A DNA stretch of 64,000 bases from the NCBI RefSeq assembly GCF_000317555.1, contig NC_019745.1, positions 4,588,001 to 4,652,000 on the forward strand, given 5' to 3'. This stretch comes from Gloeocapsa sp. PCC 7428. Its GTDB lineage: Bacteria > Cyanobacteriota > Cyanobacteriia > Cyanobacteriales > Chroococcidiopsidaceae. The position numbers and the translations under genes were made by a program. Numbering within the stretch: position 1 is the first letter of the stretch; every line of letters starts with the position of its first letter. Under the pieces are notes generated by a model. The model saw only the letters and a list, made by a program, of their open reading frames with translations, ran no database searches and was not told the DNA's origin. Positions 16,164 to 32,040 of the stretch are shown here, piece by piece.

Positions 16164-17033
16164 ATGGACGTACAACAAGCTCAACTCATCGTCAATGGAA
16201 TTGCAGTCGGTAGCATCATTGCTTTAGCTGCGGTGGGGTTAACACTAACCTATGGAATATTGCGTCTAGCAAACTTTGCACATGGCGACTTCATGACGTT
16301 AGGTGCTTATCTGACGCTCGTTGCTAATACTGTAGGAAATATTAATATTTGGCTATCGATGGTTCTTGGGGCGCTTGGTACAGTAGTTGCGATGCTACTA
16401 TCAGAAAAATTACTGTGGTCGCGAATGCGCGCCAACCGCGCGACTTCTACAACATTAATTATCCTTTCGATTGGACTTGCGCTTTTCATCCGCTATGCGA
16501 TTGTTTTTGTTTGGGGTGGTAGCAATCAAGCTTACAATCTGCCCATTTCTCCAGCGAGAGACATTTTCGGGCTAAAAATCCCACAAAATCAAATTATTGT
16601 TCTCGCTTTAGCCGTACTAGCAATTCTGGGTTTGCACTATTTATTACAGAATACAAAAGTTGGTAAAGCAATGCGTGCGGTTGCAGACGATATCGATCTT
16701 GCCCGCGTTTCTGGGATTAATGTTGACCAAGTCATTATTTGGACTTGGGCGATCGCAGGGAGTTTAACTGCCTTAGGCGGTAGTATGTATGGCTTAGTTA
16801 CCGCAGTCCGTCCCAATATGGGTTGGTTTCTGATTTTGCCAATGTTTGCTTCCGTCATTCTTGGCGGAATTGGCAATCCTTACGGCGCGATCGCCGCTGC
16901 TTTGATTATTGGGATATCACAGGAAGTCAGTACGCCTTTTCTTGGTTCGCAATACAAACAAGGGGTAGCGCTATTCATTATGATTTTAGTACTTCTGATT
17001 CGTCCTAAAGGACTGTTTAAAGGAACAATCTAA
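16164..17033 (+). CDS. Branched-chain/neutral amino-acid ABC transporter permease (LivH family, NatD-like)
   Basis: The 289-residue polytopic protein matches LivH-type permeases: LIVNGIAVGSIIALAAVGLT at the start, FAHGDFMTLGAY, the cytoplasmic coupling region KAMRAVADDIDLARVSGIN and VILGGIGNPYGA. In cyanobacteria such permeases form the N-I neutral amino-acid system (NatABCDE) or the urea system, and this one looks closest to NatD. The other subunits are not adjacent, which is common in this phylum. About eight membrane helices are visible. The substrate is inferred from the family only. Confidence 0.85.
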   Translation: MDVQQAQLIVNGIAVGSIIALAAVGLTLTYGILRLANFAHGDFMTLGAYLTLVANTVGNINIWLSMVLGALGTVVAMLLSEKLLWSRMRANRATSTTLIILSIGLALFIRYAIVFVWGGSNQAYNLPISPARDIFGLKIPQNQIIVLALAVLAILGLHYLLQNTKVGKAMRAVADDIDLARVSGINVDQVIIWTWAIAGSLTALGGSMYGLVTAVRPNMGWFLILPMFASVILGGIGNPYGAIAAALIIGISQEVSTPFLGSQYKQGVALFIMILVLLIRPKGLFKGTI

Positions 17034-19526: not shown

Positions 19527-19587
19527 TCTAGTATTGGCGCTCAAAAACTTGTTCATGCTTTAACCTAGTTTAGTTACAAGTGACTGC

Positions 19588-19658
19588 TTTTATAGTCTTA
19601 GTCAATAGAGTTAGGACATGATCAAAGCGCATAATGATTTCCCTGACCCCTGCTATAG
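19588..19658 (+). repeat. Dispersed intergenic repeat, copy A
   Basis: Starts TTTTATAG and ends CTATAG, with a core TAGTCAATAGAGTTAGGACAT and GATTTCCCTGA. It is a shorter version of copy B at 20437 and matches the reverse-strand copies at 23868, 28314 and 41376. Confidence 0.8.
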
Positions 19659-19681: not shown

Positions 19682-19697
19682 TGGCATCCTTTTTGCA
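19682..19697 (+). promoter_or_regulatory. Sigma-54 (-24/-12) promoter
   Basis: TGGCATCCTTTTTGCA fits the sigma-54 consensus TGGCAYRNNNNTTGCW at every defined position but one (C instead of purine at position 7). The invariant GG (19683-19684) and GC (19695-19696) are separated by exactly 10 nt. Transcription would start near 19708, about 110 nt before the repeat-protein ATG at 19819. A sigma-54 gene lies in the same window, which supports the call. Confidence 0.82.
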
Positions 19698-19818
19698 CAT
19701 AGAGATTGCGTATCGCATTAAATTGCGCATACAACCCTAGAAAGAGCCAAACTACATAACTGATAGTTTGCTTGTTTTAAAGGGATTTGTACTTTACGAC
19801 AAATGAAGGACTTCCATC

Positions 19819-20250
19819 ATGAGTCGATTTACTCATACTTTGATTCTCCGTTGGGGAGCAGGTGCGCTCTTCGCGCTTGCGCTTGCACCTCTCCTCGCTG
19901 AAACCGCTGCGGCAACAGTGCGTACCTCCACGCCGGAACTTGGTTCGGCAAACTCAGAAGCGCTCTATGCTCAGCGAAAAGGAGCTAAAGGCGTTAAGGG
20001 ACAACCAACTACACCACCCAAAGGTGTTGAACCACCTCCACCCAAAGGTGTTGAACCGCCGCCACCCAAAGGTGTTGAACCGCCGCCACCCAAAGGTGTT
20101 GAACCACCTCCACCCAAAGGTGTTGAACCGCCGCCACCCAAAGGTGTTGAACCACCTCCACCCAAAGGTGTTGAACCGCCGCCACCCAAAGGTGTTGAAC
20201 CACCTCCACCTAAAGGTGTTGAACCACCTCCACTGCCTCCAACCTTGTAA
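19819..20250 (+). CDS. Secreted proline-rich KGVEPPPP-repeat protein
   Basis: The 143-residue protein has a classical signal peptide (basic start MSRFTHTLILR, hydrophobic core to about residue 28, cleavage near AETAAA). A short linker follows, with nine tandem copies of the octapeptide KGVEPPPP and a PPLPPTL end. The mature protein should be an extended polyproline-like rod carrying evenly spaced Lys/Glu, outside the plasma membrane. An upstream GAAGGA ribosome-binding site 8 nt before the ATG supports the start. Its own sigma-54 promoter at 19682-19697 and a terminator at 20369 make it a single-gene unit. It is not a known family to me. A wall, sheath or envelope-spanning spacer is a guess. 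The opposite strand and another frame are also open because of the repeat, but they lack start signals. Confidence 0.8.
   Translation: MSRFTHTLILRWGAGALFALALAPLLAETAAATVRTSTPELGSANSEALYAQRKGAKGVKGQPTTPPKGVEPPPPKGVEPPPPKGVEPPPPKGVEPPPPKGVEPPPPKGVEPPPPKGVEPPPPKGVEPPPPKGVEPPPLPPTL
20017..20232 (+). repeat. Nine 24-bp tandem repeats encoding KGVEPPPP
   Basis: Nine in-register 24-bp units come in two synonymous versions of the proline block: A (CCACCTCCA) and B (CCGCCGCCA), in the order A B B A B A B A A. Every unit keeps the amino-acid sequence. The A/B alternation suggests that growth occurred partly in 48-bp AB steps. Copy number is expected to vary between strains. Confidence 0.97.
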
Positions 20251-20413: not shown

Positions 20414-20436
20414 CTTTCACACTCTTTGAAGATTCC

Positions 20437-20529
20437 TTTTATAGCCATAGTCAATAGAGTTAGGACATTATCAAAGCTCATAGTGATTTCCCTGAGGGAA
20501 GTTTAACTCTGACCTCTGACCTCTGCTAC
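20437..20529 (+). repeat. Dispersed intergenic repeat, copy B
   Basis: TTTTATAG...GCTACA, about 93 bp, same orientation as copy A. It includes GAGTTAGGACATTATCAAAG and GATTTCCCTGAGGGAAG. Together with copy A it brackets the sigma-54-driven repeat-protein gene. Confidence 0.85.
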
Positions 20530-21983: not shown

Positions 21984-23810
21984 ATGCTATTGGTAGCAAC
22001 TCCTGTGGCTGCACTGGTAACCGCAACGGCACTTCCCGTCGCAATGCATATGGCTCAAGCAAATCAAGCAGCCCCTACTACCCAAGCTCAGCCACAGAAC
22101 AACTTCACCGCAATTACTGAAATCGGCGTGACTGCACCGATGAGTGGTCGTGCTGTTTTGGCAGCAGAGGGATTTGACTATTCACTGCGACAATACTTTG
22201 CAGGCACAGCAAAAAATCTGGACTACCGCTTTGATATCTCTACTCGCTTCAACAACAGCATTTTTGATGCACAAGGGAATTTGCTGCCCAACAGTAGCTT
22301 TGGTAGCGACGACTCAACGCAACTCGATGCGTTTGGCAGCGCCAATATTTATCTCAGCAAAACCGAGCGCTTGCAGTTCGCGTTCCGCACTGTCCAACAG
22401 TTTGATCGTGTCAATGTTGTCCCCGATGAAGACCTTTTACAAACGCCTGGGCGACAGCAGGCATGGGGAATTCGCCGCCGTGTCACGGTAAGAAATACCG
22501 ATCCTCCTGGAACAGCGTCTACCGACCTCAGCATCGGCTATACAAATGATAATGTTGCAGGCAGTGTCGTGTTGCTTTCTAGCTACTACAGTCAATTGCG
22601 CTATGTCGAACGCAGCTTGTTAGACGATCGCAACGGCTTTTTTGATGGCATTATCCGTACAGGATCGGGCAGCGAGTTGATTGGGGGACAACTGCAAGTA
22701 GAAACGCCGCTATTGAATCGCGTCCGTTTACGCTGGGGAGCCGACTACGAGCATCAAGCCAAAAATGCGCTTCAGCTAGAGTTTTTTAATGAACAAATTT
22801 ACGACCTGAGTAACGGACAGGTTGCCCAAAAGACAAGTGAAGCGACTTATGTACCGCCATACGAGTTAGAAAGCCTCGGCGTGTTTGCCTCAGCAGATTG
22901 GCAGATCAACGATCGCCTACAGCTAAGTGGTGGAATTCGCCACAACTGGCTTCAGCTGCAAATCGACGACTACATCCCATTATACGATAGTGACTTCAAT
23001 CGTTACAACGGTACGGCGATCGCTGGCGGTGCCCTTCAATTTAACGATCTATTGTTCAATGCGAGCCTTGTTTACAAACTAACACCAACGCTCCAGCTTT
23101 ATGCCCAGTTTTCTCAAGATTTCTTTATTCCTGATTACGGCTTTAGTATTCTCAGCTATCCGCCCAGAGACTTTAGCATCGATCCTGCATTGACACTGTT
23201 TCAGCCGCAGAAAGTGAATTACTATCAAATCGGGCTTCAAGGCAATTGGCGGCAAGTCCAAGCGTCGCTGTCTGCGTTCTATAACGAGTCCAGTCTAGGA
23301 GCCGCTTACACGGCGTTACCCAGTGGTGGTGTTGAACTTGTGCGCGCGCCACAGCGCAACTATGGCATTGAAGCCGCAATCGACTGGCAGCCATCCACCA
23401 ACTGGCAACTTGGAGGCACTCTGAGCTACAGTTTCGGCGAAAATGACGTGAACCAAGATGGAAACTATTTGGCGCTGAGCAGCTACGAGATTTTTCCTAT
23501 AAAGTTGAGTGCGTATATCGAAAATCAAACGCTGCCAAACTGGCGTAACCGCTTGCAGCTATCACAGGTTAACAATCGTAACGCCGGATTTCAAGCCGGC
23601 TCTGACCCATTACCGATTGACGGCTACACTGTTGTGAATTTTTCCAGCACACTCAATATAGGGCAGGGTGAGTTAACTTTGGACATTCAGAATCTCTTAA
23701 ACGAGCAGTATCAAACTGTAAATTCACAACTCGACGGCTTTACTGATGAAACACTCAATCTACCCGCTAGAGGTAGAACTGTTAGCCTAACCTACCGCAT
23801 CCGATGGTAG
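21984..23810 (+). CDS. TonB-dependent receptor-like outer-membrane beta-barrel lacking the plug domain
   Basis: The 608-residue protein is rich in amphipathic beta strands and has TonB-receptor signatures in its C-terminal half: YELESLGVFASADWQINDRL, TPTLQLYAQFSQ, a NLLNEQYQT strand and a terminal strand ending in Trp. Typical cyanobacterial receptors have an AMIN/plug region of 150-350 residues before the barrel. Here only about 50 residues separate the putative signal peptide from barrel strands, and an in-frame stop at 21972-21974 rules out an upstream extension. The putative signal peptide (cut near MAQA, residue 26) contains no Lys or Arg, which is odd, and no clear ribosome-binding site precedes the ATG. 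It may be a plugless porin-like derivative, or a receptor that lost its 5' part and gained a makeshift leader. HIP1 sites inside it suggest long residence. Confidence 0.75.
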   Translation: MLLVATPVAALVTATALPVAMHMAQANQAAPTTQAQPQNNFTAITEIGVTAPMSGRAVLAAEGFDYSLRQYFAGTAKNLDYRFDISTRFNNSIFDAQGNLLPNSSFGSDDSTQLDAFGSANIYLSKTERLQFAFRTVQQFDRVNVVPDEDLLQTPGRQQAWGIRRRVTVRNTDPPGTASTDLSIGYTNDNVAGSVVLLSSYYSQLRYVERSLLDDRNGFFDGIIRTGSGSELIGGQLQVETPLLNRVRLRWGADYEHQAKNALQLEFFNEQIYDLSNGQVAQKTSEATYVPPYELESLGVFASADWQINDRLQLSGGIRHNWLQLQIDDYIPLYDSDFNRYNGTAIAGGALQFNDLLFNASLVYKLTPTLQLYAQFSQDFFIPDYGFSILSYPPRDFSIDPALTLFQPQKVNYYQIGLQGNWRQVQASLSAFYNESSLGAAYTALPSGGVELVRAPQRNYGIEAAIDWQPSTNWQLGGTLSYSFGENDVNQDGNYLALSSYEIFPIKLSAYIENQTLPNWRNRLQLSQVNNRNAGFQAGSDPLPIDGYTVVNFSSTLNIGQGELTLDIQNLLNEQYQTVNSQLDGFTDETLNLPARGRTVSLTYRIRW

Positions 23811-24074: not shown

Positions 24075-25577
24075 ATGGCAAAGAATATTGTCCCGCGACG
24101 TTGGACACTTCAGCAACAATTAACAATTCTCATCGCGCTATTTTTGTGCTTGGGTGGAGCGGCGTTGTGGCTATTAGCAGAATTATTTCATAGTCGGGAA
24201 AGTGCGATCGCAGCCCGAACGCAAGGCGAATTAGCGCGTGCGAATGCGCGCTTGATGCAACACTTTTGGGAAGGAAATCCCAGTCGCAGCCCTATCCTTG
24301 TCGGCAAGAAGTGGGATGACTATCTTTGGAAGTTATCATATGCAGCGTTGAGTGACTTTCCGCGAGTCGAAGGTGGTTTTTACATCTATAGTGAGGATCA
24401 ACTCTTAGGTTATGCATATCCTACGCACGGTGGACCTGTTCCTAAACGCGATATTCCCCCTGCGGAAAAAGGCAAAATTTTGGAATTAGTTGCTAGTGCA
24501 AGTCGGCAGCACTTACCACAGGAGATGGTACTTTATCCGCAACTCGATATTGTTGTCCTACGTGCCGATCCTTTGCCGTTTGATGGCGCAGTGTGGACGA
24601 TGAAGCGGATTCCACGATCGACGGATGCGCGATCGCAGATCCTCACGACACTGGTGATCGTGATGGTCTTGTGTGTTGTCGGGTGGACTGTTTATATCAC
24701 AGTACAATTACGCAGTGGGGTACTGCAATTACAACAAGGTATTAAAGCAATTGAACAAGGTAAAGCCAATCTCATTCCGCCACTTCCTGCTGAAATGGGA
24801 CAAGTAGGAGCATCAATTAATACAATGCAACAGCGTCGTAAGGAGTTAGAACAGCGATTGCGACGGATGGATCGCTTAGCTTCGTTAGGACAACTTGTTG
24901 CGGGTGTCGCGCATGAAGTGCGTAATCCTTTAGCCAGTATGCGCCTTAATTTACAATATGTTAAGCGGCAGCTACACAGGCAAGAAATTACCAATTTACC
25001 AATTCCTAGTTTACTAGAGCAAGTAGATCGCTTGGAAACATTAGTCAAAAGGTTACTTTACTTCGATAAAACCCAACAAGAAGAAGAATTTGTAAATGTT
25101 TCTTTAGAAGCGATCGCGATGGAATCTGTCTCCTTACTGCGCCCTCAAGCTGAACAACAGAACATTGGTTTAACGTATTTCCCCGCACCCGAACCACTAC
25201 CAGAAATTTCACTACAACGTCGCGGCATTGAACAAGTTATCTTAAATTTGATTCTCAATGCGATTCAAGCGAGTTTTCTGTCTGGAGAAGTCAAAGTGGG
25301 AGTAGAACAACAAGATAAATATTTAATCGTATGGGTAGAAGATCGCGGTGTCGGAATTCTGCCAGAACAACAAGAACGAATTTTTGACCCGTTTTACTCG
25401 ACTAAAGCTGATGGAACTGGATTAGGACTAGCAATCAGCCATGAAATTGTGACGCATCACGGAGGATATATCGATTTACAGTCGCGCTCTGGCTGGACAA
25501 AGTTTAGTGTGTATTTACCACTAGACCGAGTAGCGCTTGTTACTAATTCACAATATGGCAAAAATTCTCATTATTGA
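24075..25577 (+). CDS. Sensor histidine kinase of the sigma-54 activator system (NtrB/AtoS-like)
   Basis: The 500-residue kinase has transmembrane helices at about 18-38 and 188-210 flanking a periplasmic sensor of about 150 residues, then a HAMP-like linker and coiled coil (about 211-265). HisKA follows with His280 in AGVAHEVRNPLASMRLNL, the subtype that partners NtrC-family regulators, and HATPase_c (EDRGVGI, GTGLGLAISHEIV). The sensor part (VEGGFYIYSEDQLLGYAYPTHGG) is not a domain I recognise. The following regulator gene overlaps its 3' end by 23 bp, so translation is coupled. Expected role: phosphorylate the NtrC-type activator in response to an extracytoplasmic signal. HIP1 octamers inside the gene mark it as long resident in this genome. 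Confidence 0.9.
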   Translation: MAKNIVPRRWTLQQQLTILIALFLCLGGAALWLLAELFHSRESAIAARTQGELARANARLMQHFWEGNPSRSPILVGKKWDDYLWKLSYAALSDFPRVEGGFYIYSEDQLLGYAYPTHGGPVPKRDIPPAEKGKILELVASASRQHLPQEMVLYPQLDIVVLRADPLPFDGAVWTMKRIPRSTDARSQILTTLVIVMVLCVVGWTVYITVQLRSGVLQLQQGIKAIEQGKANLIPPLPAEMGQVGASINTMQQRRKELEQRLRRMDRLASLGQLVAGVAHEVRNPLASMRLNLQYVKRQLHRQEITNLPIPSLLEQVDRLETLVKRLLYFDKTQQEEEFVNVSLEAIAMESVSLLRPQAEQQNIGLTYFPAPEPLPEISLQRRGIEQVILNLILNAIQASFLSGEVKVGVEQQDKYLIVWVEDRGVGILPEQQERIFDPFYSTKADGTGLGLAISHEIVTHHGGYIDLQSRSGWTKFSVYLPLDRVALVTNSQYGKNSHY

Positions 25578-26877
25578 TGATGAAAAACCGTTGCGTCAGG
25601 CGATGGCACAAATACTGCAAGATGAAGGTCACACCATTATTGAAGCAAAAGACGGTAGCCAAGGATTAAAAATTATTAAAGATAGTATTGCGCTAGGCGA
25701 TCGCCCTGACTTAGTGTTTCTCGACTTAAAAATGCCACGCACGCAGGGAATGACCGTATTAAAAAACTTAGGCAAAATACTCTTTGAGCTACCTGTAATT
25801 GTGATGACTGCGTATGGTACAAGCCGGACTGCGATTGAAGCTATGCAGTTAGGTGCCTACGACTATTTAACCAAACCATTTGATTTAGATACTTTAGTCG
25901 AGCTTACCGAAAAAGCGCTTTCGCATCATCAAGCGTCAGTTTACCGCATCAGCGCTGAAACGCTTAGTCAAAACGCCGACGAAATGCTAGGGCGATCGCC
26001 GTTGATGCAAAATGTGTTTAAACTCATTGGTCGAATCGCTCAAGGTGATTCCACAGTACTCATTTTAGGCGAATCGGGTACAGGTAAAGAATTGGTCGCG
26101 TCGATGATTCACACGACGAGTTCGCGTAGTAAAGGACCATTAGTCAAAGTTAATTGCGCCGCGCTTCCAGAACATTTATTAGAAGCCGAATTGTTTGGAC
26201 ACGAAAAAGGGGCGTTTACGGGTGCAGATCACCTGCGCATTGGTCGTTTTGAGCAAGCGAATGGCGGAACTCTATTTTTAGATGAAATTGGCGAACTAAC
26301 GCCAGTGATTCAAAGTAAATTATTGCGTGTTTTACAAGATCGCTCATTTGAACGCTTGGGAAGTAACCAAACACGTACAGTAGATGTGCGCATTTTAGCA
26401 GCAACGAATCGTAACTTGGAAGAAATGGTACGTAGTAACCAATTTCGTGAAGATTTGTATTATCGCTTGAATGTTGTACGAGTCGAATTACCTGCCTTGC
26501 GCGATCGCATAGAAGATATCAATCTTCTCACGCAACATTTTTTAAGTCGAATTGCACTAAAGCAAGGGTATCCGAGTTTAGCGATCGCCGAAACAGCAAT
26601 GAAAAAACTCCAAAGTTATCCGTTTCCAGGAAACGTCCGCGAGTTACAAAACATTCTCGAACGCGCTGCTGTTCTTTCAGGCGGACGACCGATTTTACCC
26701 GAACATCTTATTTTTACGCAAAACGAGGAACCTGAACTCAACTTAGCGCAAGCTGTAGCGCAACTCGAACAAGATTTGATTCGTCGCGCGTTACTCCTCG
26801 ATCCGCAAGAACCACATAAAGCGTTAGGTTTGGATCAGCAAACGTTTATCCAGAAACGCCAGCAGTGGAATTTATAG
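25555..26877 (+). CDS. NtrC-family sigma-54-dependent response regulator
   Basis: The 440-residue bacterial enhancer-binding protein has a receiver (residues 1-120; acceptor Asp57 in LVFLDLKMP, Lys in YLTKPFD) and a complete AAA+ activator domain (about 143-375). The latter has Walker A GESGTGK (172-178), the sigma-54 contact loop GAFTGA intact at 219-224, Walker B GTLFLDEIGE and the arginine region RSNQFREDLYYRL. The C-terminal Fis-like helix-turn-helix is short and divergent (KALGLDQQTFIQKRQQW) but can be aligned with the usual recognition helix. It should remodel the closed complex of the sigma-54 holoenzyme using ATP. The ATG at 25555 is preferred over the upstream TTG at 25537. The rpoN gene follows after 3 bp. 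Confidence 0.93.
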   Translation: MAKILIIDDEKPLRQAMAQILQDEGHTIIEAKDGSQGLKIIKDSIALGDRPDLVFLDLKMPRTQGMTVLKNLGKILFELPVIVMTAYGTSRTAIEAMQLGAYDYLTKPFDLDTLVELTEKALSHHQASVYRISAETLSQNADEMLGRSPLMQNVFKLIGRIAQGDSTVLILGESGTGKELVASMIHTTSSRSKGPLVKVNCAALPEHLLEAELFGHEKGAFTGADHLRIGRFEQANGGTLFLDEIGELTPVIQSKLLRVLQDRSFERLGSNQTRTVDVRILAATNRNLEEMVRSNQFREDLYYRLNVVRVELPALRDRIEDINLLTQHFLSRIALKQGYPSLAIAETAMKKLQSYPFPGNVRELQNILERAAVLSGGRPILPEHLIFTQNEEPELNLAQAVAQLEQDLIRRALLLDPQEPHKALGLDQQTFIQKRQQWNL

Positions 26878-26880
26878 CGT

Positions 26881-28254
26881 ATGGTTATTGCTTCTACCCA
26901 GTCACTGACAACACGCTTGCAAACGGATACTGTTCTTTATCCTACATTACGGCAACTCGTGCGCTTGCTGTCTTGCGATCGCAACCAAGTGATTAAACAT
27001 CTGCAAGCGGAAGCAAAGGAAAACCCGTTTTTACTGGAAACACCGACAGAAGAACGCGACTCGCTTATTAGCGACGTTTTACCACAATGGTACGATGTCC
27101 AAGCCGCAAGTTCGACAATACAAGAGCATTTATACGGACAGATCGCCGCGTTGTCAATTTCAACTCAGCAACGCGAAGCACTAATTTATCTTACCCAGTG
27201 GTTATCGAGTGCAGGATACTTAGAGCAAACTCCCGAAACTTGGGCAAAAGGGACTTCTTGGCGTTCTCAAGAACTAGAAAGATGCGTACCAATCCTGCAA
27301 AGCCTCGATCCACCAGGAATTGGCGCGCGTTCGTTACGCGAATGTTTGCTATTACAACTTCAAGATTGTACAGAGGATCTTGCTAGGATCTTGATTCGCG
27401 ACTACTTAGAAGAATTAGCTGATTGTGTTGGTAATTCTTCGACGGCGATTGAGAATTGTGAAAGACTAAGGCAAAAACTGAACAGTTCATCGCAACTGTC
27501 TACTAAAATAACTCATAAAGATTTGCAAGCGGCGATCGCGCAAATTCAAACTTTAGAACCGCGCCCTGCAAGAAACTTTGGTTACAGCAATATACCCATT
27601 GTCACACCTGATTTACAAGCAGAACTGACAGCCCATCAAACTTGGCAAGTTTCTTTAATCGCGCAACCGCGTCAGCGATTTTGCCTTAATCAAGAAGCAA
27701 TTCATTTGTTACAGCAGCCGCAAGCAAAAGCACAAGACAAACAACGTTTAGAAAATCTGCTACAAAAAGCACAAAGTTTACTCACAGCGCTTGATCAGTG
27801 GCAAGAAAATTTGCTCAAAGTCGGACAGTTTCTAGTCGAACGCCAACAAGCTTTTTTACATAGCCAAGATGCGTTAGATTTAATTCCCACACCGCAACAA
27901 ATTGTCGCGCAATCGGTGGGATTGAGTAACGCCACCGTTAGTAGAATTGTACGTGGTAGATATTTGCGCGTGTGTGGAACGCGCGATCGCACAATTCCCT
28001 TAGCATCGTTGTGCGTTCCAGTGTCTGTGGGCGGACGTACACTCCAACAAATTCAACAACTCCTCCTACAACTTGTCGCGGAAGAATCTGTCGATCAGCC
28101 TTACACCGACGAACAACTCGTCCAACTTTTAAAGCTTCGCTATCATCTTTCCATCGCTCGTAGAACAGTTGCAAAATACCGTAAAGCCGCAGGAATTGCA
28201 CCCACTTCTATGCGTCGTCACCGCGAGTATGGATCGTCGATGTGCGATGACTAA
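26881..28254 (+). CDS. rpoN: RNA polymerase sigma-54 factor
   Basis: The 457-residue protein has all parts of sigma-54. Region I is a Gln/Leu-rich activator-binding segment (residues about 6-54, SLTTRLQTDTVLYPTLRQLV, KENPFLLE). A core-binding region covers about 70-300 (LDPPGIGARSLRECLLLQL). The HTH at about 337-362 reads TPQQIVAQSVGLSNATVSRI, and the RpoN box ARRTVAKYR is at 426-434 within a canonical C-terminus (GIAPTSMRR). It directs polymerase to -24/-12 promoters and depends on an ATP-driven activator, here encoded 3 bp upstream. The stretch between HTH and RpoN box diverges: the usual aromatic FF motif is replaced by IPLASLCVPVSV. Several HIP1 sites lie in this gene (for example near 26974, 27533 and 27982), arguing against contamination. 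Sigma-54 is generally reported absent from cyanobacteria. Confidence 0.95.
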   Translation: MVIASTQSLTTRLQTDTVLYPTLRQLVRLLSCDRNQVIKHLQAEAKENPFLLETPTEERDSLISDVLPQWYDVQAASSTIQEHLYGQIAALSISTQQREALIYLTQWLSSAGYLEQTPETWAKGTSWRSQELERCVPILQSLDPPGIGARSLRECLLLQLQDCTEDLARILIRDYLEELADCVGNSSTAIENCERLRQKLNSSSQLSTKITHKDLQAAIAQIQTLEPRPARNFGYSNIPIVTPDLQAELTAHQTWQVSLIAQPRQRFCLNQEAIHLLQQPQAKAQDKQRLENLLQKAQSLLTALDQWQENLLKVGQFLVERQQAFLHSQDALDLIPTPQQIVAQSVGLSNATVSRIVRGRYLRVCGTRDRTIPLASLCVPVSVGGRTLQQIQQLLLQLVAEESVDQPYTDEQLVQLLKLRYHLSIARRTVAKYRKAAGIAPTSMRRHREYGSSMCDD

Positions 28255-28313: not shown

Positions 28314-28417
28314 GCGATAGTAGGGGTCAGAGGTCAGGGGTTAGGGTTAAACTCTCCTCAGGGACATCACTACGAGCTTCGATAATGTCCTAACTCTATT
28401 AACTAGGGCTATAAAAG
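28314..28417 (-). repeat. Dispersed intergenic repeat, copy C (full length)
   Basis: About 104 bp, from GATAGTAGGGGTCAGAGG to GGGCTATAAAAG, with CTCAGGGACATCACTACGAG and ATAATGTCCTAACTCTATT in the centre. It matches the reverse complement of copy B almost throughout and ends the sigma-54 operon. Confidence 0.88.

Positions 28418-31683: not shown

Positions 31684-32040
<357 letters not shown>

Follow-up and report, generated by a model that had tools for sequence, protein, structure and literature searches.

Comparison with described sigma-54 systems

The regulatory systems AtoSC, ZraSR, and NtrBC each pair a sensor kinase with a receiver-AAA+ activator that carries a GAFTGA motif. An operon in a 64,000-nucleotide stretch of the Gloeocapsa sp. 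PCC 7428 genome (the window) likewise codes for such a kinase and activator, with AtoS and AtoC as the best NCBIfam models, and is a real, rare, and conserved cyanobacterial sigma-54 operon for which likely promoters can be read from the DNA. Unlike the NtrC-family systems, it lacks an intact Fis helix-turn-helix (HTH), includes its own rpoN gene, and has a cyanobacterial host, and its kinase and activator each fall below the curated cutoff of every one of the 25 models listed per protein. In the Chlamydia CtcB-CtcC and Helicobacter FlgRS systems, rpoN lies outside the kinase-activator operon. The activators of these systems have no HTH, as in one cyanobacterial carrier (G399), whereas seven of the eight activators described here keep an eroded tail; CtcC is described as being without a DNA-binding domain (PMC7482065), and FlgR and CtcC are classed as group 5 activators with the HTH absent (PMC7175178). 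A plasmid cluster of Methylocystis, Bradyrhizobium, Caballeronia, and Paraburkholderia has a homologous gene set, but its activators have a readable Fis HTH. Extra rpoN copies are also found paired with an activator, whereas the window rpoN is the only sigma-54 gene of its genome. Where rpoN has its own activator in Paracoccus and Cereibacter, it is an additional copy beside the housekeeping RpoN. On Paracoccus sp. TOH plasmid p2 (locus L213), a sigma-54-interacting regulator gene ends 1 nt upstream of rpoN, and Cereibacter RpoN3 has a cognate activator (PMC11999139).

Sigma-54 is reported as missing from all 29 cyanobacteria in one study (PMC3162934), cyanobacteria are tabulated without it in another (PMC2758279), and the cyanobacterial genomes analyzed so far are said to have only sigma70 genes (PMC11119718). 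A PLoS One paper of 2025 names Gloeocapsa sp. PCC 7428 and Leptolyngbya sp. O-77 as rpoN carriers, its analysis being limited to classes in which four or more organisms have the gene (PMC12316311), and in a BMC Genomics paper of 2024, which compares 22 thermophiles, RpoN is listed as Thermoleptolyngbya-specific (PMC10775510). Cyanobacterial rpoN is rare, but it is not unreported. Among the matches listed in a search of mostly open-access literature, none was a paper on an operon, promoter, or regulon of a cyanobacterial sigma-54.

The kinase-activator-rpoN operon

The operon comprises three forward-strand genes, coding for a membrane sensor histidine kinase (HK; 24075 to 25577), an NtrC-type sigma-54 activator (EBP; ATG at 25555, stop at 26877), and a 457-amino-acid RpoN (26881 to 28254). 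The kinase and activator genes overlap by 23 bp and the activator-rpoN gap is 3 bp, consistent to the base with the preliminary description, and the motifs named there were all read directly: GAFTGA, Walker A (GESGTGKE), and Walker B (FLDEIGE) in the activator and the RpoN box ARRTVAKYR. The kinase, which aligns across eight cyanobacterial loci, has hydrophobic segments (membrane segments were judged by eye) flanking a periplasmic-type domain with the motif FPRVEGGFY...YAYPTHGGPxPKxDIPPAE, followed by HisKA (H280) and HATPase_c domains, both over their curated cutoffs in a Pfam scan. A two-sequence AlphaFold model of the kinase (mean pLDDT 51, sensor domain mostly below 50) was too poor and was not used. 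The activator exceeds the curated Pfam cutoffs for Response_reg, Sigma54_activat, and AAA_lid_14, its receiver has the phospho-acceptor aspartate in FLDLKMP, and its C terminus is an eroded HTH tail ending in EPHKALGLDQQTFIQKRQQWNL.

The RpoN regions AID, CBD, and DBD score 31.0, 130.4, and 102.9 bits, all above the Pfam cutoffs. The match to the NCBIfam equivalog TIGR02395 covers model positions 2 to 434 of 434, with a score of 231.1 bits that is under the cutoff of 277.35, and this RpoN is therefore divergent. The activator also misses the equivalog cutoffs for ntrC (443 of 558.6 bits) and AtoC (447 of 714 bits). Within the genome, the window rpoN is the sole match to the RpoN DNA-binding domain, and the activator is the single strong match to Sigma54_activat, with 247.9 bits against 52.3 for the runner-up; the six other matches, at 24 to 52 bits, mean little because the family also matches in all 14 control genomes.

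The receiver and AAA+ parts are those of group 1 (NtrC-like) bacterial enhancer-binding proteins, which also have a C-terminal Fis-type HTH; an HTH was not found by Pfam in the activators of the window (E ≤ 0.001) or of G399, G618, and G643 (E ≤ 1). The cyanobacterial tails (YPQEPHKALGLDxQSFEQKKQQWNL) are shortened and altered relative to the proteobacterial GNRxEAARxLGIxRQxLY and similar sequences, and the G399 activator ends right after the AAA+ lid. The preliminary description did not include this erosion, the RpoN score under the equivalog cutoff, the module genes and promoter-like sites of other carriers, or the proteobacterial counterpart.

Distribution and loss among cyanobacteria

The operon is patchily distributed in three overlapping samples, of the phylum (386 genomes), the class (383 genomes), and the order (388 genomes). 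In the phylum sample, 12 genomes match PF04552 at E ≤ 0.001, three of them over the cutoff and only one (G000, the window genome) with the full domain; the remainder are a remnant in G125 and ten short partial matches, nine below the cutoff and one (G224) above it by 0.3 bit. All of the short matches except that of G005, of a sister genus, were taken as chance by assumption. A seven-row RpoN profile finds two genomes in the class sample, and a four-row profile finds nine in the order sample, in three families. The preliminary description had called the system rare or undescribed; such searches bear out the rarity, whereas sigma-54 in cyanobacteria is already in print. Seven of the nine are intact (G000, its congeners G395 and G396, G399, G618, G641, and G643) and two are broken, with G654 retaining the N-terminal half and G125 just the DNA-binding part. 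Within the window's family, RpoN and the activator co-occur in the same 4 of 19 genomes.

The kinase-activator-RpoN gene order is kept in the seven genomes with intact RpoN and in G654, with identities to the window proteins of 57 to 97% for the kinase and 75 to 98% for the activator. The RpoN box reads ARRTVMKYR in G399 and is eroded in the G125 remnant. In a tree, the cyanobacterial copies stand apart from four outgroups with support of 1.000. G399 belongs to the window's family, yet its RpoN is only 55% identical to that of the window, compared with 58 to 62% for members of other families, so transfers among cyanobacteria are possible. A search for an rpoN donor gave a nearest plasmid match of 31% identity, the tree having just the four outgroups. 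No relative was found in viral contigs using patterns from the RpoN protein; remote RpoN matches are present in 14 phage records, at 25 to 30% identity among the five matches listed.

The part of the window locus bounded by the gene at 16164 and the HIT-family gene at 31690 is the same in G395 and G396; psbA is seen farther on in G396, and the G395 contig stops before it. G005 has the same outer neighbors, between which there are no orthologues of the KGVE (see below), methyltransferase, TonB, kinase, activator, and GntP genes. A piece reading VRRTVAKYRKLAGIPPTHIHRHHK adjoins its ComM-like gene and is an RpoN-box fossil (45 bp at 84%), consistent with the earlier proposal that any transfer was not very recent. 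Next to the rpoN remnant of G125 lie a fragment of a G643-type MFS gene and a CitMHS gene with 97% identity to the one at the G643 locus. In G654 (L124, 10181 to 10999), rpoN homology ends after 606 nt (91% to G643), with kinase, activator, and promoter-like sites intact; the truncation is probably a recent loss. G643, of the same genus, is intact. The G005 fossil, the G125 remnant, and orphan promoter-like sites described below fit an old presence followed by repeated loss.

Module genes and promoter-like sites in other carriers

Outside the window's genus, the five carriers G399, G618, G641, G643, and G654 have a full-length QYLL gene, an MFS gene, and a CitMHS/ArsB-type gene, which sit at the rpoN locus save for the G399 MFS and CitMHS genes, on another contig. 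QYLL proteins are secreted-looking, with repeated QYLLNPEGxVDGLLLxNGxQxxxPP units, and also occur in Proteobacteria and Bacteroidota. Searches give E ≤ 4e-155 in the five carriers and 6e-73 for the next best, and 92 of the 388 genomes (the five included) match at E ≤ 1e-10. Among the members scanned (L026, 15120 to 16094; L093, 8919 to 9629, 10136 to 10540, and 15891 to 16634), none has an NCBIfam match or a Pfam match over the cutoff, with one weak Pfam match to the tail of L093 15891 to 16634.

Consensus or near-consensus -24/-12 sites precede several of these module genes and, in G643, G654, and G399, the operon itself. Sites were scored with weights from a general -24/-12 consensus (maximum 19.3), and those of G399, G641, G643, and G654 and the QYLL site of G618 lie 35 to 166 nt upstream of gene starts. 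They precede QYLL (6580, minus strand), the kinase (6778, plus), and MFS (14125, minus) in G643; QYLL (7233, minus), the kinase (7306, plus), and MFS (13928, minus) in G654; MFS (1478, plus) and QYLL (8218, plus) in G641, which also has one on a different contig before a DMT gene (L159, 6070, plus); and QYLL (16433, plus) in G618, in which two more (16322 and 16391, minus) face MFS-kinase-activator-RpoN from more than 650 nt away. In G399 they precede the kinase (15021, minus) and QYLL (15078, plus) and, at L093, a GDT1/OFeT-type gene (6856, minus) and a short QYLL gene with DMT next (10706, minus). The full score is reached at sites in G618, G641, G643, and G654, and the kinase sites of G643 and G654 score 14.0. 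Eleven sites score at least 16 in the five loci, nine close before module genes and two being the distant G618 pair, compared with a mean of 0.375 and a maximum of 1 in 40 shuffles. The exact motif is present in all eight genomes with rpoN (seven intact, one half) and in 46 of the 380 others, where it occurs at 52 sites (0.14 per genome), in a partly circular test (Fisher p = 9e-8); G125 is among the 334 genomes without it.

A consensus -24/-12 site, TTTGGCACGGTTTTTGCACTAATG, is also present in two genomes without an rpoN match (L152, 4860 to 4876, in G005; L153, 4910 to 4926, in G398), where it precedes a 45-amino-acid reading frame, with a Kelch-like protein (named by eye) farther downstream. 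This orphan site is a putative ghost promoter. Five f6 genomes that have no match to rpoN contain TGGCACGGTTTTTGCAC, which lies inside a 282-codon frame in both of those inspected (G558 and G195).

A candidate target in the window's genus

The best conserved candidate promoter in the window is a -24/-12-type site, TGGCATCCTTTTTGCAC (19682 to 19698, forward strand), 121 nt upstream of a gene for a small, apparently secreted KGVEPPPP-repeat protein (KGVE; 19819 to 20250, forward strand) with an N-terminal signal-like segment recognized by eye. The core TTTTTTGGCATCNTTTTTGCAC is the same in the three species but for N, whereas the flanks diverge. TGGCAYNNNKTTTGCAC has a single exact match in the 5.88-Mb genome, at 19682, and a single one at the corresponding position of both G395 and G396; the chance expectation of the exact motif within 20 kb of the operon is ~0.0005, the motif itself being partly built from such sites. 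The KGVEPPPP repeat consists of 24-bp units whose copy number differs by species, with fewer or altered units (KGTEPPPP) in the congeners, and the protein has no Pfam or NCBIfam match. Overlapping frames are open on both strands of 19819 to 20250.

Other candidates were set aside. Among 69 looser consensus-like matches in G000, 42 have both GG and GC, of which 41 fall within reading frames; the only intergenic one, before a DEAD-box helicase gene (G000:C1:4287674), is probably chance. The GntP permease, TonB barrel, and methyltransferase genes have no site scoring at least 14 upstream in the window, and the neighbors differ elsewhere. With the tested module targets not at the locus and the looser matches nearly all in frames, the switch appears to control very little here.

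Counterparts on proteobacterial plasmids

Among 72,556 plasmids, the window kinase matches at least 5,000 records and the G643 QYLL protein matches 21, with 12 records in common among the best 20 listed of each and the matches at most 6 kb apart. Plasmid loci of Methylocystis, Caballeronia, Bradyrhizobium, and Paraburkholderia each have kinase, sigma-54 activator, QYLL, MFS, and anion/arsenic transporter genes together, with DMT in three of the four and a metallophosphoesterase in two; Acidiphilium has the kinase, activator, and QYLL, and Spirosoma and Methylocapsa have QYLL with no kinase annotated nearby. RpoN was not found by tblastn in these seven plasmid stretches. The MFS and CitMHS proteins of Methylocystis and Bradyrhizobium are 48 to 52% and 44% identical to those of G643, compared with 36% and 25% for Caballeronia. 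Identities to the cyanobacterial proteins are 41 to 44% for the activator and 27 to 31% for the kinase in all three, and 52 to 53% for DMT in Methylocystis and Caballeronia. Three of the four full loci have promoter-like sites: before QYLL in Caballeronia (full score), Bradyrhizobium, and Methylocystis (weaker), before MFS in Methylocystis, and before a metallophosphoesterase-MFS-transporter operon in Caballeronia (weaker). In a small activator tree with three outgroups, the plasmid module activators group with those of cyanobacteria (support, 0.91). As the plasmids carry homologous genes without rpoN, cyanobacteria may have received a portable cassette together with the sigma factor.

Proposed mechanism and alternatives

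It is likely that the operon is a dedicated sigma-54 switch, as the preliminary description had proposed, and a self-contained one of kinase, activator, RpoN, and few -24/-12 promoters; one RpoN, one strong activator match, and few intergenic sites in the genome point the same way. The kinase would detect a periplasmic or envelope signal and phosphorylate the receiver of the activator, which would form an AAA+ ring and, its DNA-binding domain being eroded or gone, contact the RNA polymerase-RpoN complex from solution and not from an enhancer. An enhancer would be dispensable to a switch in which a single activator serves few promoters. The activator could then open a small set of -24/-12 promoters, including in some carriers that of its own operon and those of the QYLL, MFS, anion transporter, DMT exporter, and GDT1/OFeT-type transporter genes. 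The switch may thereby act in transport or under envelope stress. For the window's genus, the site kept best would serve the apparently secreted KGVE protein. The plasmid cassette presumably uses the RpoN of its host, whereas rpoN would travel inside the cyanobacterial operon because cyanobacteria normally have none. Whether such a cassette entered a sigma-54-less phylum with its own sigma factor and became an orthogonal, enhancer-free switch whose parts are kept or lost together, with ghost promoters and RpoN-box fossils marking the genomes that lost it, we regard as an evenly balanced question. If working, the system would show that cyanobacterial RNA polymerase can use sigma-54, explain how an activator-dependent transcription system moved between phyla, and provide a natural, minimal, silent-until-activated switch in phototrophs.

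A serious rival, albeit a rather improbable one, is that the ancestral switch still works in other families and is a relic in the window's genus, its targets gone and the operon drifting to loss. The locus of G000, G395, and G396 holds none of the module target genes (QYLL, MFS, CitMHS, DMT, and OFeT-type), relatives have lost or broken rpoN (the G005 scar and the G125 and G654 remnants), and two sister-genus genomes hold the orphan site before a short frame. For the more closely related G000-G395, RpoN has a dN/dS ratio of 0.32, a less clear value from few changes. However, each of the three genes keeps its full length and its active-site residues in three species, dN/dS for G000-G396 is 0.10 for the kinase, 0.07 for the activator, and 0.16 for RpoN, and the KGVE promoter core is kept while its flanks diverge. 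Besides the missing module genes and the RpoN ratio, several observations weigh against a working switch of the proposed kind or its joint transfer. A full-length QYLL gene is absent from the window's genus, whose CitMHS orthologue is elsewhere, is also present in rpoN-less relatives, and has no site scoring at least 15.5 nearby. The KGVE site deviates from the consensus (C for the usual G), a consensus scan of the window shows no excess of sites, and the Fisher test is partly circular in that carrier genomes contributed to the exact motif. The conserved tail of ~45 residues in seven of the eight activators may still do something. Plasmid sites are weakly above shuffles (three scoring at least 16 in four loci, compared with a mean of 0.4 and a maximum of 2), with none in Paraburkholderia, since the three seen lie in Methylocystis, Caballeronia, and Bradyrhizobium, and the G643 activator matches E. 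coli AtoC (327 bits) better than it does the plasmid module activators (281 to 307 bits).

A role in global nitrogen or carbon regulation, like that known from Proteobacteria, is suggested by the family resemblance to NtrC and AtoC, but is very improbable given the single strong activator match, the confinement of nearly all GG- and GC-keeping matches to reading frames, and the transport and envelope-type neighbor genes in other carriers; a nitrogen regulator is rejected because its targets are lacking. Nothing was found in favor of a contaminating contig or assembly error, which is ruled out by the shared synteny in congeners and the RpoN-box fossil in a sister-genus genome, as the preliminary description had anticipated from its HIP1 octamers. 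The operon is on a 5.43-Mb contig of a five-contig, 5.88-Mb assembly (completeness, 100; contamination, 0.18%), the window also codes for psbA and recR, and HIP1 octamers are denser in the operon (10; 2.4 per kb) than in the whole window (95; 1.5 per kb).

Flanking features of the operon

A gene for a TonB-dependent receptor-type barrel (21984 to 23810), in which the Pfam scan matched no plug domain, lies 16 nt downstream of the methyltransferase gene and is kept in G395 and G396. An inverted repeat with 90-nt arms (20436 to 20525 and 28328 to 28417; 89% complementary) encloses the methyltransferase-TonB-kinase-activator-rpoN block, and a related copy is present at 19582 to 19646. The repeat could mark a mobile or rearranging segment.

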